Both the position numbers and the translations under genes were made by a program. A stretch of DNA of 64,000 bases from Rhodophyticola sp. CCM32 (GTDB lineage: Bacteria > Pseudomonadota > Alphaproteobacteria > Rhodobacterales > Rhodobacteraceae). The notes below the pieces were generated by a model. The model ran no database searches and was not told the DNA's origin. It saw only the letters and a list, made by a program, of their open reading frames with translations. This document shows positions 5,796 to 27,708 of the stretch, piece after piece. Within the stretch, counting starts at the first letter, position 1. The number at the start of each line of letters is the position of its first letter. The stretch covers positions 248,001-312,000 of the forward strand of contig NZ_CP038492.1 of NCBI RefSeq assembly GCF_004751985.1. The letters are read 5' to 3'.

Positions 5796-6582
5796 TCATT
5801 CGGCGGCGGGCTGGACTGATTTCAGAACCCGGACAGATCCCACAGCCTGCACCCGGTTACTGCTGTCCCAGATGTTGAAAAATCTCCTGGTGCCTTCCGG
5901 CAAATGCTCGACCGGAACGGTGAATACCGCAACACCACTGGCATCGGTGGTCTCCGTTCCGGTCCAAAGCGGATCACCACCCGCCGTATCCGACAACGCC
6001 AGACTCACCTCTTCCTCACCAAGCACAACTTCGTCGGGATCATGAGCCGTGATCTGGATAATCAGAGGTTCACCGTGATAATAATGTGTGATCTTCGTGT
6101 CTGTCGCAGGCATGTTGCCCTCCATTTCTCTGACGCCCGAGGGCGCACCGATGATACTGGCCGACCCGCCCGGTGCGCCGAGGATGTCACGCCAGCCGAC
6201 AGGCGCGGCCGCCATCTGCATCACACCCTGCGGCGCACCGGTTAAGGTCACGATACTGCGCGGGGTGCCGATCACCGTGGCAATTGGGACTGGCGTGTAC
6301 TTTATCACAGCGGGCAGATGGCCAATGCCGGATGTCATACCCACACCTGTGAGCGCCAGCGCACCTGCTGTCGAAACAGGCCGGCGGCCGGCACCCGCCA
6401 TATCGCCGGCTTGAGTATCAGACCCTGCGCCGACAATAACCGCGCGGGCATACCCACGGCCGGAAGCCTGGCCCGCCCCGGAAGCAGCGCTGCTACCTTG
6501 CCCCACCATGGGCAATTGCCCCGATCCGATACCCTGGCCCCCGGATGGGGCAACAATCGCGCCCGCCGCCACAACTGGTGAA
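5796..6582 (-). pseudogene. 5'-truncated phage-like structural or Ig-like domain protein
   Basis: About 260 codons are open, but the only available start codon lies in foreign DNA. At about 6583 the frame runs into the cut 5' end of an IS5-family transposase, so the original N-terminus is missing. The N-terminal 150 residues are rich in Gly, Ala and short beta-like repeats. The C-terminal 100 residues (HGEPLIIQITAHDP to VGSVRVLKS) look like an Ig-like beta-sandwich. The composition suggests a phage fibre or surface protein, but I do not recognise a family. It may be the last trace of a prophage that entered at the adjacent tRNA-Leu gene. Confidence 0.45.
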
Positions 6583-7184
6583 TACACAACGATCTACAAC
6601 CGTTTCAACCGATGGACTTATGCGGGCATTTGGGATCGGGTAATGGAGGCGGTCGCCGATGCGCACAATATCGACACCGTGATGGTGGATGGCACATCGG
6701 TTCGGGTTCACCATTCTGCAGCGACGCTCAAAAAAACGACCCGCGTCGTTGCATGGGCCGGTCGCGGGGTGGGTTAACCACGAAAATACATGCACTTACC
6801 AATCAGGACGGGTTGCCGATCCGCTATGAACTGACGCCGGGCCAAGCCCACGATGCACCCCCATGCGAACAGCTTTTGGACGGGCTGCAACCTGGCCAAT
6901 ACGTTCTGGCTGACAAGGCATATGACGCGGATTGGATCCGCAAGATGATCTGGGAACAGGGCGCCATCGACGTCATCCCGTCCAAATCCAACCGCAAACT
7001 GCCCGCCGAGTTCGACGTCGATATCTATCGCGAGCGCAACAAGATCGAGCGGTTCTTTGGCCGCCTCAAAGCTTCCTTCCGCCGCATCGCAACCCGATAC
7101 GAAAAGACATCTGCCAACTTCTTGGCGATGATCAAACTCGCATCCGTCAGGCTATGGTGCCAGTTTTATGAGTCCGCTGCCTAA
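6583..7184 (+). mobile_element. IS5 family (IS427 group) transposase, 5'-truncated
   Basis: Transposase sequence starts abruptly at YTTIYNRFNRW; the first 60 or so residues and the left end of the element are missing. A first frame runs to HHSAATLKK and continues one frame back as GRSRGGLTTKIHAL through DDE-region motifs (ADKAYDADWI, RNKIERFFGRLKASFRR). The change of frame falls on seven A at 6730-6736, the usual programmed frameshift site in this group, so it is not a lesion. The 5' truncation makes the copy non-functional. It abuts and truncates the phage-like gene. Confidence 0.85.
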
Positions 7185-19730: not shown

Positions 19731-20625
19731 TAGAGCGTTTTGCGTTTAATTGGTTCCATATCCTGCGGCTTTGAAGAAGTTGAAGCCTTCTTCGTCCGTG
19801 AAGAGATCGCACACTTGACCGACCGCGTTCCATAACGCGTCATATGTTCTTGCTGCGGCTTTTCGGATCAGCGTTTTGAGCTTTGAGAAAGCCATCTCTA
19901 TGGGGTTGAGATCGGGCGAGTATGGCGGCAAGAACAAGAACCACGCACCGACATCGCGCAACATTTCGGCGGCCCGCGCACTTTTGTGGCTGGAAAGGTT
20001 GTCCAGGATGATCACGTCCCCCTTGCTCAGGGTCGGTGCGAGTTGGGTTTCGACGTAGGTATCGAATGTCACGCGGTTCATGGCACCGTCGATGACCCAT
20101 GGCGCGTCCAGCCTGTTATGTCGCAACGCCGCGACAAAGGTTTGCGTGCGCCAGTGCCCGAAAGGCGCGTGATCGACCAGCCGCTGACCGCGCGGTGCCC
20201 AGCCGGTCGTCTTGGCCATGTTGGTTTTCAGCCAGGTTTCGTCAATGAAGCCAATACGTTCCAGCATATGTGCCATGAACGGCTGGCTGTGTGTGATCCA
20301 GATATGCCTTTGCCGGGCAACCTTGGCACGCTTCTGCTCAAGAGCTTGCAGGTCTTTTTTTATGCGTCAGCCCGAGCCGCTGAAAAAGTCGCCAGACCGA
20401 GCTAAAGCACCCTGCCTTAAACTTGACTCACAAATACCCTGCCACGCTTCGCGTTCCCGGGACATTTGTGATGTGCGATGTCTCAGGTTTAAGGCAGCAT
20501 GCTGTAGGAGCGACAGACACGCCGCGCTCTGCCTGTAAACGCGCCGCCATTTCGTCAAGCGTGATCTCGCCTTTGGCGTCCACCTGCGCGCGCACCCAAT
20601 CTTTGTGAGGCGTCAGCTTGCCTAT
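19731..20625 (-). mobile_element. IS630 family element, interrupted by a miniature element
   Basis: The C-terminal part (minus strand, stop at 19746) has the DDE motifs IGFIDETWLKTNM, VIILDNLSSHKSARA and PPYSPDLNPIEMAFSKLK. The upstream part reads THKKDLQALEQKRAKVARQRH across a run of seven A at 20355-20361, where the frame changes, as is common in IS630. The N-terminal part (DWVRAQVDAKGEITLDEMAARL) lies at 20508-20620, separated by the 104-bp palindromic element. Removing that element with one TA gives GVSVAPSSVWRLFQRLG in one frame. The left end is probably the TA at 19731. The right end is cut where the helicase fragment begins. Confidence 0.85.
20403..20506 (-). mobile_element. Palindromic miniature element (MITE-like), copy 2, inside IS630
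   Basis: The same 104-bp TA-flanked unit, with two differences from copy 3. Its terminal arms (TAAAGCACCCTGCCTTAAAC; and TACAGCATGCTGCCTTAAAC from the other end) are good inverted repeats. It disrupts the IS630 transposase: in the transposase frame the element brings an in-frame stop, so here it is inactivating. This copy gives the best evidence for mobility, since the empty site can be rebuilt exactly. Confidence 0.92.
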
Positions 20626-21168
20626 GGGGTTCCGCCGCTATTCGGGGGCGATCCCGGGATGATCCATGATCGTGTTATCGAGAAGATGTTCGACATTCTC
20701 GAAGGGAGTTTTGAGCCGAGCTACATGGATCAAGCAGCCCTGCGCCTGCTTAGCGAGGCTTGCGCCAACTATGCGCGGCAGGGGTTCGCGGCAACGCCTT
20801 TCGTTGAGTTGGGTGGAGGCGCATGTATTCTGGCAACGCGCTGCGGCACGGTAAAAACGACGACGCTGGCCATGGCACTGGGCGCATCAGGTTTTCAGAT
20901 CACTCAGCACGATGGGTTTTTATTGGTTGAGACAGGCGACGCTGATCACTCTTTGGGGCAGGTGCTATCGGCAATGGCCTACGAGGAGATGCCCGATCTA
21001 TTCACCCATGCTCCGAACCTAGTTTTTGAGAAGTACCACCCTTATCTGACGCCCGATTTATTGAAACTGGATGCTCTTTCGACACGTGTTGACGCCGGTT
21101 GCCTGCAAAAGCTGTGCGCGGATCTTCAGGAATACACGAGCGACCGGATTGGATTGAAACCAAGCTGA
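20620..21168 (+). pseudogene. C-terminal remnant of a DEAD/DEAH-type helicase
   Basis: About 180 codons beginning at PPLFGGDPGMIHDRVIEKMF right after the cut IS630 end. The pattern (PPxFGG, HDRV, YMDQAALRLLSEACANY, later VFEKYHPYLTPDLLKLDALS) matches the C-terminal region of large SF2 helicases of the kind found in mobile and defence loci. The helicase motor domains are absent, and the nearest start codon is inside the IS, so this is a fragment. The family assignment comes from memory of sequence pattern only. Confidence 0.45.
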
Positions 21169-21247
21169 ACGCGCAACCGTTCGAGGCGTTATCAAAAATT
21201 TAAGATCAATTTGACATGATCTTGGTTCGTCAATCGCGGAAAAATCC

Positions 21248-22951
21248 ATGAATCAGTCATTTTCAGAGTTTCTCCGCTCCGGCGGTGAAGGAGAGTTTCT
21301 TTTGCGCAAATCGACCACCGGCATGATCGGTCGCCGGGTTGGTTGGTCCGTTAAAAACGCATTACCCAACTACAGTTCCCTACGAGCAGCCTTCGAGGGC
21401 CAGCTTGGCGAGGCAGCAGCTGAAAACGCCAGCATGCTTCTGGCCGCGTTGGCAGAATCCTACGATCCACTCCTTGAAGAGCAAGACCTGCCCAACATCG
21501 ACACGGCGACAAACGAAACGCTGGCCGTCTGGGATCAGCGGCTGGCAAGAATCCGGGCCGAATGGCATTCTCATCCTCAGCGATTGCGGCCTCTTCGGCT
21601 GGCAATGGAGGAAAGGCTGTTGCGCAGCTATGCGGGTTTGATCAATGAAATCAGACAGCGTGAACTGGGCATTGAGCAATACACTTGGGAAACGGTTGGT
21701 GATGAGAGGGTCCGCGCGGGACATGCCGCTCTGGATGGCCGTGTTTTCCGCTGGGATTCAGATGGCGAGCGCCCCGGAGAGGCCCCAAATTGCCGCTGTT
21801 CGGCCCGTCCGGTGCCACCTGATACGGGTATCGGTGTCTTGGGGCCGCTTGGTCTGCTGGACCGCTTCCTCGGAACCCTTGATGAGGATTTCTCGGCTGG
21901 TCTGGGCGTCCGGCCACAATCATTTTCCGAACGGCTCCGCGATCTGTTCCAGCCCGAACCCGGCGTGACTATCGACGGCGAAATGCTCGATATCCAAACG
22001 CAGGGTGATCTCGCCGTTGCCTTCCAGCAGCTTGGCGACGCGATCAAGGATGATCCGGGTGCGTTCCTGGACTTGATCGGTCGCTATGGCGAGGGCTTTG
22101 ATCGGCTGGCATCGGTGTTTGGTATCACCAATGCCGAAGCCCTGATGACGGCGGCGGCCTTGGCTGCCTCGGGTGCCCCGGAAGCGCTGGTCAATGAGGC
22201 GCTGACCCAATCGCGAAGCGCCATTGATCGGTTTGTGGGTGGAACGGCAACGTCCTTGGTGGATATTGCCGACGCCATCCGAAACATCCCGAACATCCGA
22301 TGGTCAGATATTCGCCGTGTTGCGCAGGCGCTTTATGCCGACCCATCGGCGCTGCCTGAGGCGATGGTCGAGCCATTCAGAGAACGCATTGCCGTTGGCG
22401 ATTACGCGGGCGCATTGGGATACGCCCTGCCGGAGGTGATCGCGGGCGTGGCCGCACTGGGCCGAGTGCGCAATCGTGCCGAGGGGCTATCCGCGCCCGA
22501 AGAACTCACGCTTGAGCGGCTTCAAACCGACCCCGACTTCGAGGGCATTCTCAATGCGGGGTCGAATGCGCCTCGGTTCGAGCGCTGGATCAATCAGGGC
22601 GGCAATGTTGAGCTTATGCCAGAAGGGCATTTCCGCTACTCTGCCGAGATTGACGTGCAGGGTCAGCGCCAGCGGGTCTCGGTGGAATATCCCGAGGGAT
22701 ACCCGGATTTCACCCCCTTCATGACACATCCGAGCGGGGTGAGATCTGTTGAGATTGAGGTGTCGGGGCATTCACGAACAGATAATCGGCGCGCCAACAC
22801 GGAAGCTGGTCACCCGGAATGGGGAAGCAGTCCGCCTGCAGGATGGGTTTGGCACCATGTCGAAGATGCGCGAACAATGCAGCTGATTCCACTCGAAATA
22901 AACCGCGATTTCTATCATCTTGGCGGCGCATCAATTGCGAGGAACCAATGA
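21248..22951 (+). CDS. MuF-domain polymorphic toxin with WHH-type nuclease C-terminus
   Basis: A 567-residue protein with a GGAAA ribosome site. Residues about 100-190 form a phage head-morphogenesis (Mu gpF/SPP1 gp7) domain: YTWETVGDERVRAGHAALDG and NCRCSARPV. Residues about 200-450 are a helical, Asp/Ala-rich linker. Residues about 460-567 are a different, Gly/Pro- and His-containing module ending with WVWHHVEDARTMQLIPLEI and DFYHLGGASIAR. This is the WHH signature of HNH/EndoVII-fold DNases used as toxin tips (W535, H536, H537, H557). The SUKH gene overlaps its stop, giving a classic toxin-immunity order. No portal, terminase or capsid gene is near, so this is an orphan or remnant of a prophage module. 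The DNase activity is predicted. Confidence 0.85.
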   Translation: MNQSFSEFLRSGGEGEFLLRKSTTGMIGRRVGWSVKNALPNYSSLRAAFEGQLGEAAAENASMLLAALAESYDPLLEEQDLPNIDTATNETLAVWDQRLARIRAEWHSHPQRLRPLRLAMEERLLRSYAGLINEIRQRELGIEQYTWETVGDERVRAGHAALDGRVFRWDSDGERPGEAPNCRCSARPVPPDTGIGVLGPLGLLDRFLGTLDEDFSAGLGVRPQSFSERLRDLFQPEPGVTIDGEMLDIQTQGDLAVAFQQLGDAIKDDPGAFLDLIGRYGEGFDRLASVFGITNAEALMTAAALAASGAPEALVNEALTQSRSAIDRFVGGTATSLVDIADAIRNIPNIRWSDIRRVAQALYADPSALPEAMVEPFRERIAVGDYAGALGYALPEVIAGVAALGRVRNRAEGLSAPEELTLERLQTDPDFEGILNAGSNAPRFERWINQGGNVELMPEGHFRYSAEIDVQGQRQRVSVEYPEGYPDFTPFMTHPSGVRSVEIEVSGHSRTDNRRANTEAGHPEWGSSPPAGWVWHHVEDARTMQLIPLEINRDFYHLGGASIARNQ

Positions 22952-23445
22952 TTTTTGACAGGCAAAACAAACCGACCGATGAAGCTCAAATCAAGGATTT
23001 TGAGGCGAGCAGAGGTTTCACGCTTCCTGAAGATTACAGGGTGTTCCTTCTGAAATACAATGGCGGTCGACCCGCAGACGCAAATTCCTCATTTCAGCCA
23101 GACAGACTTACCTGGTTAAGCGTAGAAGAATTTTTTGGATTTACAGAAGAATCGCTAAATGACATCGCAAGTTTTCGCTACAATGACTTCTCAGACTACA
23201 TCCATGCGCGCTTGCTTCAAGTCGCCAATACGGGTTCGCAAGGCATATACATCGACCTGCGAGAAGGGTCTATGCACGGCAAAATCTACATTTTGGCTCG
23301 TCCCGCAAACGAAACTGTTTTGGTCGACGACGCGGGTTTTGAGGACGACGGCGACTATGACGAAGCCAGGTTTCTTCATCCCGTCGCAAGCAGCTGGTCT
23401 GAATTCATAGCTATGCTCGGCCCCGATCCACAACTTGAAGAATGA
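22948..23445 (+). CDS. SUKH (SMI1/KNR4) family immunity protein
   Basis: 165 residues. The ATG overlaps the toxin stop (ATGA), indicating coupled translation. The SUKH pattern is visible: IKDFEASRGFTLPEDYRVFL then KYNGG near residues 15-40, WLSVEEFFGF about residue 55, and a late acidic segment (VLVDDAGFEDDGDYDEARF) with ASSWSEFIAML near the end. Members of this superfamily neutralise many nuclease toxins by binding them. Its role here as the antidote of the preceding WHH toxin follows from position and family. Confidence 0.9.
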   Translation: MIFDRQNKPTDEAQIKDFEASRGFTLPEDYRVFLLKYNGGRPADANSSFQPDRLTWLSVEEFFGFTEESLNDIASFRYNDFSDYIHARLLQVANTGSQGIYIDLREGSMHGKIYILARPANETVLVDDAGFEDDGDYDEARFLHPVASSWSEFIAMLGPDPQLEE

Positions 23446-23691: not shown

Positions 23692-23970
23692 CTATCGGGT
23701 TTTGGGGCCAGGCTTTTTGGGCCTCGGCAAGGCCAGAGCCTCGGTCTGCATCACAATCGTTTCTAAAGCACCCTGCCTTAAACTTGAATCACAAATACCC
23801 TGCCACGCTTCGCGTTCCCGGGACATTTGTGATGCGCGATGTCTCAGGTTTAAGGCAGCATGCTGTAGTTGATTTTCGGGCAATGAAGACACAGCAACAG
23901 CCAACCGATCCATCATCTGGGATCGTATGCTAGGCGGTTCGGCGTAGGAGCGGCATAGGGTGTTTTGCAT
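23692..23970 (-). CDS. Possible small gene carrying an in-frame miniature element
   Basis: A 92-residue minus-strand frame beginning MQNTLCRSYAEPPS, with GGGA nearby as a weak ribosome site, and ending KKPGPKTR. The 104-bp palindromic unit lies inside it in the phase that stays open and adds 34 codons. Without the insert the frame would be 58 codons. I do not recognise either flank, so this may be a chance frame in degenerate DNA. Confidence 0.25.
   Translation of the reverse strand: MQNTLCRSYAEPPSIRSQMMDRLAVAVSSLPENQLQHAALNLRHRASQMSREREAWQGICDSSLRQGALETIVMQTEALALPRPKKPGPKTR
23764..23867 (-). mobile_element. Palindromic miniature element (MITE-like), copy 3
   Basis: A 104-bp TA-flanked copy closest to the family consensus. 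The outer arm CCTGCCTTAAACTTGA pairs with TCAGGTTTAAGGCAG, the inner arm ATCACAAAT with ATTTGTGAT, and a CGCTTCGCG hairpin is inside. Its minus-strand 34-codon frame is open and in phase with the surrounding short frame. Confidence 0.9.
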
Positions 23971-24150: not shown

Positions 24151-24225
24151 TGGCTCCGGCGGTAGGGATCGAACCTACGACCAATTGATTAACAGTCAAC
24201 TGCTCTACCGCTGAGCTACGCCGGA
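24151..24225 (-). tRNA. tRNA-Asn (anticodon GTT)
   Basis: 75 bases with encoded CCA. The acceptor stem pairs TCCGGCG with CGCCGGA, the D arm contains AGCTCAGCGGTAGAGC, the anticodon loop CTGTTAA gives GTT, and the T loop is GGTTCGATCC. It is the right-hand border of the accessory stretch that starts at tRNA-Leu. Its 3' end points into that stretch, as expected for an integration site. Confidence 0.97.
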
Positions 24226-27378: not shown

Positions 27379-27708
27379 ATGGGCAACAAGCCAACACATG
27401 ACATTTTACCGGTCGAAAACTGTGAAGAGGGCGACGGCGAACAGAAGGCGTATTTCACCAATACCGGCAGCGCATGGCAGAAGGACAGCGGTGCGATCTC
27501 ATGCGAAATGCGCGACGGCCTACAGCATGCTGCCTTAAACCTGAGACATCGCGCATCACAAATGTCCCGAGAACGCGAAGCGTGGCAGGGTATTTGTGAT
27601 TCAAGTTTCAGGCAGGGTGCTTTAAGCGTGTCTGGCCGCTTTGTGCCGAGTGGCAAAGATGCGTGCCCCCAAACGGAAAGGTGCCAGACCCGAAGATCCG
27701 GCACCTGA
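27379..27708 (+). CDS. Small hypothetical protein carrying an in-frame miniature element
   Basis: The start is strong (AAGGAG at 27365-27370 before ATG). Residues 1-47 (MGNKPTHDILPVENCEEG to ISCEMRDGL) are host sequence. Then 34 codons come from the palindromic element at 27521-27624, and the original frame resumes with SVSGRFVPSGKDA to a stop at 27708. With the element the protein is 109 residues; without it, 75. The insertion (100-bp core plus one TA, 102 bp) preserves the frame. I do not recognise the host family. Whether the longer protein is made is unknown. Confidence 0.5.
   Translation: MGNKPTHDILPVENCEEGDGEQKAYFTNTGSAWQKDSGAISCEMRDGLQHAALNLRHRASQMSREREAWQGICDSSFRQGALSVSGRFVPSGKDACPQTERCQTRRSGT
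27521..27624 (+). mobile_element. Palindromic miniature element (MITE-like), copy 4
   Basis: The 104-bp TA-flanked unit in opposite orientation to copies 1-3, with two substitutions against copy 3. On the plus strand it reads without a stop through QHAALNLRHRASQM and EREAWQGIC to FRQGAL. It lies within a small gene with a strong ribosome site and does not break its frame. Confidence 0.92.

Follow-up and report, generated by a model that had tools for sequence, protein, structure and literature searches.

A MuF-WHH polymorphic toxin gene with a likely SUKH antidote outside recognised prophages in Rhodophyticola sp. CCM32

A gene for a polymorphic toxin, in which an N-terminal MuF domain of the phage-head type is joined to a C-terminal WHH nuclease tip, lies outside any recognised prophage in Rhodophyticola sp. 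CCM32 and is followed by a gene of the SUKH type. It was analysed in a window of 64,000 nucleotides (NZ_CP038492.1, positions 248,001 to 312,000), to which all positions below refer unless another locus is named. The orphan state is no accident of this strain and recurs across the family, and a weapon known as phage-encoded likely has its own life in bacteria because its relatives, present in many related genomes, constitute a lineage distinct from the copies borne by phages. The best reading of the gene is a free-standing MuF polymorphic toxin, a non-phage variant, which is predicted to be carried by heads that the cell produces. More specifically, there is in our judgement an even chance that the orphan toxin and its antidote serve to kill antidote-free neighbours by riding phage-like heads, most likely those of gene transfer agents (GTAs). 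The SUKH protein would bind the WHH tip and keep it harmless in the producer, while the MuF domain would dock at the portal of heads under assembly; the toxin would then leave with the particle and enter a recipient, whose DNA would be cut unless a matching SUKH protein were present.

A preliminary description, made from the letters of the DNA, had proposed the fusion of a MuF domain and a C-terminal WHH module in one protein of 567 residues, together with an adjacent SMI1/KNR4-type gene. Profile searches bear this out: the Pfam matches of both proteins, including the MuF and WHH domains listed in Table 1 and the SMI1_KNR4 match at residues 9-155 of the second protein, each lie above the curated cut-off. 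The toxin also matches Colicin-DNase in Pfam (residues 480-559, E 2.6e-10), TIGR01641 SPP1 gp7 in NCBIfam (E 7.2e-12), and PHROG 324 head morphogenesis (E 6.2e-21). Six positions of the tip, W535, H536, H537, L546, H557, and G559, are invariant in six WHH copies, and we take the tip to be a putative DNase from the name of its family. The N-terminal module (residues 1-195) is common to phage-borne and non-phage relatives that bear other tips. Its predicted structure (pLDDT 82, pTM 0.72) resembles predicted phage head-morphogenesis or minor capsid proteins, with 34 matches at E 0.001 or lower and the best at 3.3e-6. Fold searches of the PDB with this model and with the full-length toxin model, which is poor (pLDDT 63), turned up nothing at E 0.001 or lower. 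Two predicted viral proteins that match the model of the module (E 1.7e-3 and 1.6e-3) bear portal or HK97 portal names, a weak hint that MuF-like domains may pair with portals of the kind used by GTAs.

Table 1. Features of the toxin locus, in positions of the window.
Feature	Position	Strand	Basis or remark
MuF-WHH toxin gene	21248..22951	+	567 aa, ORF call and Pfam
N-terminal module, residues 1-195	21248..21832	+	alignment, tree, model matching phage head-morphogenesis proteins
Phage_Mu_F domain, residues 114-186	21587..21805	+	PF04233, E 1.1e-12
Middle region, residues 196-430	21833..22537	+	helical, poorly predicted, conserved among WHH relatives
C-terminal toxin part, residues 431-567	22538..22948	+	exchanged jointly with immunity gene between relatives L003 and L004
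WHH nuclease domain, residues 528-566	22829..22945	+	PF14414, E 2.6e-14
SUKH (SMI1/KNR4) likely immunity gene, 165 aa	22948..23445	+	PF09346, E 2e-17; start overlaps toxin stop
tRNA-Asn bordering variable site of cassette	24151..24225	-	

The overlap of the two genes that had been noted earlier is real, as the letters ATGA are common to the toxin stop and the start of the SUKH gene. With 165 aa, the latter somewhat exceeds the 150 aa applied to immunity-like genes in PMC5576092. It is the likely antidote to the adjacent toxin, to which its joint exchange with the tip, described below, points indirectly. At E 1e-10, the SUKH protein was found in three of 394 genomes of the family, which are the same three that carry the full-length toxin. 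A second gene of the same type is present in a Ruegeria genome (G228; L064, 9220-9717), where it ends 52 bases from the contig end and encodes a protein 72% identical to the partner of that genome's own toxin. Such a second copy fits competition among kin.

The locus lies in a closed chromosome of 3.86 Mb, and PF04233 has no match there besides the toxin. No structural phage gene, be it a terminase, portal, capsid, or other one, was recognised among the scanned neighbouring ORFs. In blastn comparisons with 50,697 phage records, the flank at 13.5-21.2 kb matched a single record, over 122 nt, and the flank at 23.4-31.4 kb matched 393 records, of which the ten listed all correspond to tRNA-Asn. 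The neighbouring-ORF scan and the flank comparisons support the earlier claim that terminase, portal, and capsid genes are absent nearby, and the pairing and the orphan state had rightly been named as the unusual points. A block of kinase, hydrolase, and tRNA-Asn genes is kept in all six congeners, and their gene content differs beyond the tRNA-Asn (about 1 to 14 kb compared); therefore, the cassette sits at a variable tRNA-Asn site. ORFs of the window had no match at 1e-10 in the congener stretches past the tRNA-Asn, except for distant matches of the ABC-transporter type. Each of the six congeners (L078-L083) has different genes there, and the site in one of them (L078) begins with an ORF that by eye resembles a DNA methylase. 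A repeat of 105-106 nt is found around the locus (20402-20507, 23763-23868, and 27520-27624). Of 116 candidate copies in the genome, 40 were scored and all 40 match at about 98-100% identity, so that it is a general dispersed repeat, and the idea that it marks the ends of the cassette was dropped. Directly upstream of the toxin, an ORF of 187 aa (20605-21168) matches only the C-terminal portion (residues 552-716 of 720) of Shango SngC (8.2e-28); it looks like a remnant and adjoins an IS630-type transposase (19746-20276). Farther away, a minus-strand ORF of 263 aa (5796-6587) has a repetitive, Gly/Ala-rich first half.

Comparison of the locus in related strains, which the preliminary description had proposed, yielded five full-length relatives outside recognised phages, on chromosomes and one plasmid, with best-segment identities of 62-74%. 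They come from Roseobacter H9 (L003), an uncultured Labrenzia (L004), Ruegeria spongiae (L005), Sulfitobacter DFL-14 (L006), and a Pukyongiella plasmid (L008). DNA similarity of the window to L003, L006, and L008 runs from the start of the toxin to just short of the immunity stop (21247-23429), so that the DNA held in common is essentially the toxin and the immunity gene; in L006, a further 45-51 nt are in common with the dispersed repeat. Immediately upstream of the toxin, L004, L006, and L008 have a run of three tyrosine recombinases, an arrangement as in RIT elements (PMC3414803). Between L006 and L008, recombinases, toxin, and immunity gene are common over 6.2 kb at 93%. By eye, a single ORF of 688 aa in L003 (6588-8654) appears to join the second of the three recombinases to a stretch of Rhs-type repeats.

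The toxin tip and its SUKH gene have changed hands as a pair. Between L003 and L004, protein identity is 92% up to residue 430, 76% in the tip, and 41% in the immunity protein (143 aligned residues), and dS rises from 0.43-0.44 upstream of the tip to 1.69 within it; this contrast indicates that tip and SUKH gene were exchanged together. The immunity protein of L004 is closer to that of L005 (62%) than to that of L003 (41%). L005 has a different N-terminal module, which is 46% identical to that of the window and 81% identical, over 162 residues, to that of L052, a copy with an EndoU tip. Among L003, L004, and L006, purifying selection acts on each of the three modules, with dN/dS of 0.06-0.14 overall and 0.06-0.10 in the MuF module. 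For the copy in the window against L003, L004, L006, and L008, synonymous change is near saturation (pN 0.14-0.19, pS 0.67-0.80), and the near-identical pair L006 and L008 gives 0.61 in the tip, a value of little weight on a dS of 0.02. These data bear on the idea that toxin and SUKH protein form an intracellular pair of the toxin-antitoxin kind, which helps to retain islands, plasmids, or recombinase elements. The toxin-SUKH pair is indeed the unit common to the relatives, and the variable tRNA-Asn site, the plasmid copy, and the recombinases beside L004, L006, and L008 would agree with such addiction. However, it would explain neither the selection on the MuF module nor the swapping of tips, and we consider it quite unlikely.

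The N-terminal module was detected in 36 of 394 Rhodobacteraceae genomes by a family search (1e-6, matches to any part of the query counted) and in 40 of 390 genomes by an order search (profile of residues 1-195, 1e-15). A scan of viral contigs with a single protein confirmed no relative, and the N-terminal alignment gave 77 relatives in IMG/VR. Altogether 89 loci were analysed: the window, the five WHH relatives, 35 genome stretches, and the best 48 of the 77 viral contigs. Nine structural markers came from L044 and L039, and PHROG describes the majority of them as terminase, portal, head protease, tail terminator, tail, or tape measure; at least one was found in 54 loci (48 viral and 6 genome). 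In all 54, some of which are near-copies and not independent, the toxin gene lies on the strand opposite to all markers detected. Among the 42 loci with both the tail terminator and phrog_6367, 38 have the toxin between these two and four have it beyond phrog_6367. Because the phage-borne copies run antisense to the late genes, head loading is only a prediction even in phages. L039, L044, and L085-L131 are lambda-like phages in which the MuF toxin and its downstream gene are antisense to the late genes. All 12 phage records tested, which may be fragments, have a single PF04233 domain. WHH-like matches in Ruminococcus phages were considered as further MuF-WHH toxins and rejected, the one that was profile-compared having no MuF similarity (probability 0.03). 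These phages (L207, 2591-4777, and L208) encode a WHH-tipped protein whose middle is HINT-like by eye, followed by a gene that by eye resembles SUKH.

The other 35 loci carry none of the nine markers in the stretch covered; one of them (L198) is on the same contig as L003, and two (L004 and L040) are short contigs. Since the markers stem from one type of phage, the flanking ORFs were scanned as well. Comparison of 122 of the 274 listed ORFs, from 25 non-phage loci, with PHROGs matched 93 families. Of the 25 families listed, 19 match at least two ORFs, namely five integrases, one anti-restriction family, one FabG-like family, and 12 undescribed families, and no recurrent family among those listed has a head, tail, portal, or terminase description. 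The tree of the N-terminal module (76 rows; 44 phage and 32 non-phage) requires two changes of label, compared to a mean of 24.8 after shuffling, with one non-phage row (L192) inside the phage part; being unrooted, it gives no direction of transfer between phage and non-phage copies. The lambda-type portal family is absent in 16 of the 23 genomes that bear non-phage copies. Beyond the earlier view that the module seems kept without the phage, the orphan state recurs across the family, is separated from phage-borne copies on the tree, and is accompanied by tips of the DNase type.

Some non-phage copies have decayed. Six end before 230 residues, L055 has a stop within the N-terminal stretch, and four of the RNase type have shortened tips, one of which (L054) is frame-broken. 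Together with the homology of the N-terminal module to phage-borne ones, such broken copies would suit a toxin that is a leftover of a decayed phage. The tree separation, the 122 flanking ORFs of 25 non-phage loci, among whose listed recurrent families none is described as structural, and the copies of the WHH and EC869 types, which are open through the tip, speak against this origin, and we give it hardly any credence.

Within Rhodobacteraceae, the first 195 residues are combined with several kinds of nuclease tip, and each kind has a downstream ORF of its own. Outside phages, the WHH tip occurs in six copies and an EC869-like tip in five, all of the latter assigned by Pfam and with EC869 CdiA-CT as the nearest PDB entry; a CdiI gene is recognised by Pfam beside one of these five, and two more fall in the same BLAST cluster. 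Nine non-phage copies are of the RNase A type (L046 and L192 scoring above the cut-off, L043 scoring below, and another six assigned through their BLAST cluster), one has an EndoU tip by Pfam (L052), and the remaining copies are unassigned. The phage set comprises 45 distinct ORFs from the 54 marker-bearing loci, after five duplicates, L087, and three short ones were left out. It shows 19 RNase A, five CdiA_C, and four EndoU tips, about 17 ORFs without a recognised tip, and no tip of the WHH or EC869 family. Going by the names of their families, WHH and EC869 tips are presumably DNases, whose counterparts acting on RNA would be the RNase A and EndoU tips. Recognised DNase tips thus number 11 in non-phage copies and none in phage copies (Fisher p 1.2e-5, treating related copies as independent), and they derive from about three lineages on the N-terminal tree. 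One CdiA_C example (L114) matches PDB 4g6v, which we take to be the Bp1026b CdiA-2 toxin. That toxin is described as a tRNA nuclease in PMC5576092, where the predicted targets of phage MuF toxins are RNA and (p)ppGpp metabolism, and this fits the split between DNase and RNase tips. In contrast, the mention of HNH nucleases in MuF prophage neighbourhoods in PMC3482391 speaks against a strict rule.

The split could be understood in terms of sabotage, in which the MuF domain is captured by the heads of an infecting phage and the DNase, away from the SUKH protein, cuts the packaged genome, leaving dead particles. The restriction of recognised DNase tips, WHH and EC869-like, to non-phage copies (11 versus 0) would agree with this, as would, weakly, flanking ORFs that match defence families (type I restriction, Cas1e/Cas7e, mads, and SngC). 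Since these defence-type neighbours were counted without a background rate, the reading as a defence island is kept as a weak one. Moreover, the DNase tips trace to only about three lineages, non-phage copies with RNase tips exist too, and the matched exchange of tip and immunity gene, which defence would not need, points to encounters with other producers. We regard sabotage as rather unlikely and prefer intercellular competition to phage defence, since the matched tip and immunity gene diversify together, serving encounters with other producers. Two things count against the head-riding explanation: a DNase enclosed together with DNA might ruin what the head carries, and some non-phage copies have decayed. 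A bolder combination, which we hold to be unlikely, is that a non-phage MuF-DNase line of Rhodobacteraceae rides the heads of others, GTAs above all, and kills non-kin or shreds phage genomes, and that phages would keep RNase tips because a DNase cannot be packed with their own genome.

As for the vehicle, a search for two portal families (PF04860 and PF05136) found one HK97-type portal in this genome, about 350 kb from the toxin and within an RcGTA cluster, in which the RcGTA tape measure and megatron baseplate protein also score above cut-off. A profile search found no lambda-type portal in this genome. The RcGTA cluster is thus the only candidate source of heads found here with these two families, and it would supply the portal at which the MuF domain docks. 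GTAs are widespread in this bacterial group, so that the presence of RcGTA gives weak support for its role as the vehicle. Alternatively, another secretion route such as type VI could carry the toxin, with the MuF domain reused as an adaptor. Two observations would suit this: WHH tips are listed with carriers of types II, V, VI, and VII in PMC3482391, and the nearest solved structures are Rhs proteins. Profile searches with Pfam and NCBIfam, however, reported no PAAR, Rhs, or LXG domain in the toxin, and we judge such a route very improbable.

MuF toxins have so far been described as exclusively phage-encoded, and their virion delivery is still a hypothesis. Among the literature matches listed, with preprints and most subscription papers outside the scope, no non-phage MuF toxin lineage was recognised. 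A non-phage lineage in GTA-bearing bacteria would offer a clean test of whether a MuF domain can bring a toxin into heads in trans and, if it does, GTAs would gain a role in kin competition. Likewise, DNase tips outside phages and RNase tips within them lead to a testable prediction on what can be packed beside DNA.

The gene resembles the MuF polymorphic toxins (Jamet 2017, PMC5576092; Apk2, PMC12226406; Bxa, PMC11699363) in its N-terminal MuF domain, its C-terminal toxin, and the small immunity-like gene downstream. The C-terminal tip is variable among relatives here too (WHH, EC869-like, RNase A, EndoU, and Bp1026b-like), as in PMC5576092. Loading into the virion head, predicted for this toxin, is according to these papers a hypothesis for that family as well. 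Unlike phage MuF toxins, this gene lies outside a phage, is not beside a portal, bears a WHH tip, and has relatives that form a non-phage lineage. In PMC5576092, muf genes sit immediately downstream of portal genes, whereas the related phages of the present set carry the gene antisense to the late genes. Tox-WHH and Imm-SUKH polymorphic toxins (Zhang 2012) show the same order of a WHH tip followed by a SUKH gene, but the carriers in their table row in PMC3482391 do not include MuF, which is the carrier here. Relatives of the gene bear CdiA-type tips (EC869-like, RNase A, and Bp1026b-like) on the same MuF module, and one has a CdiI immunity gene by Pfam, as in CdiA systems; this family nevertheless uses a MuF carrier in place of the CdiA stalk. 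RcGTA, finally, is a possible vehicle, known in this genome from its gene cluster.
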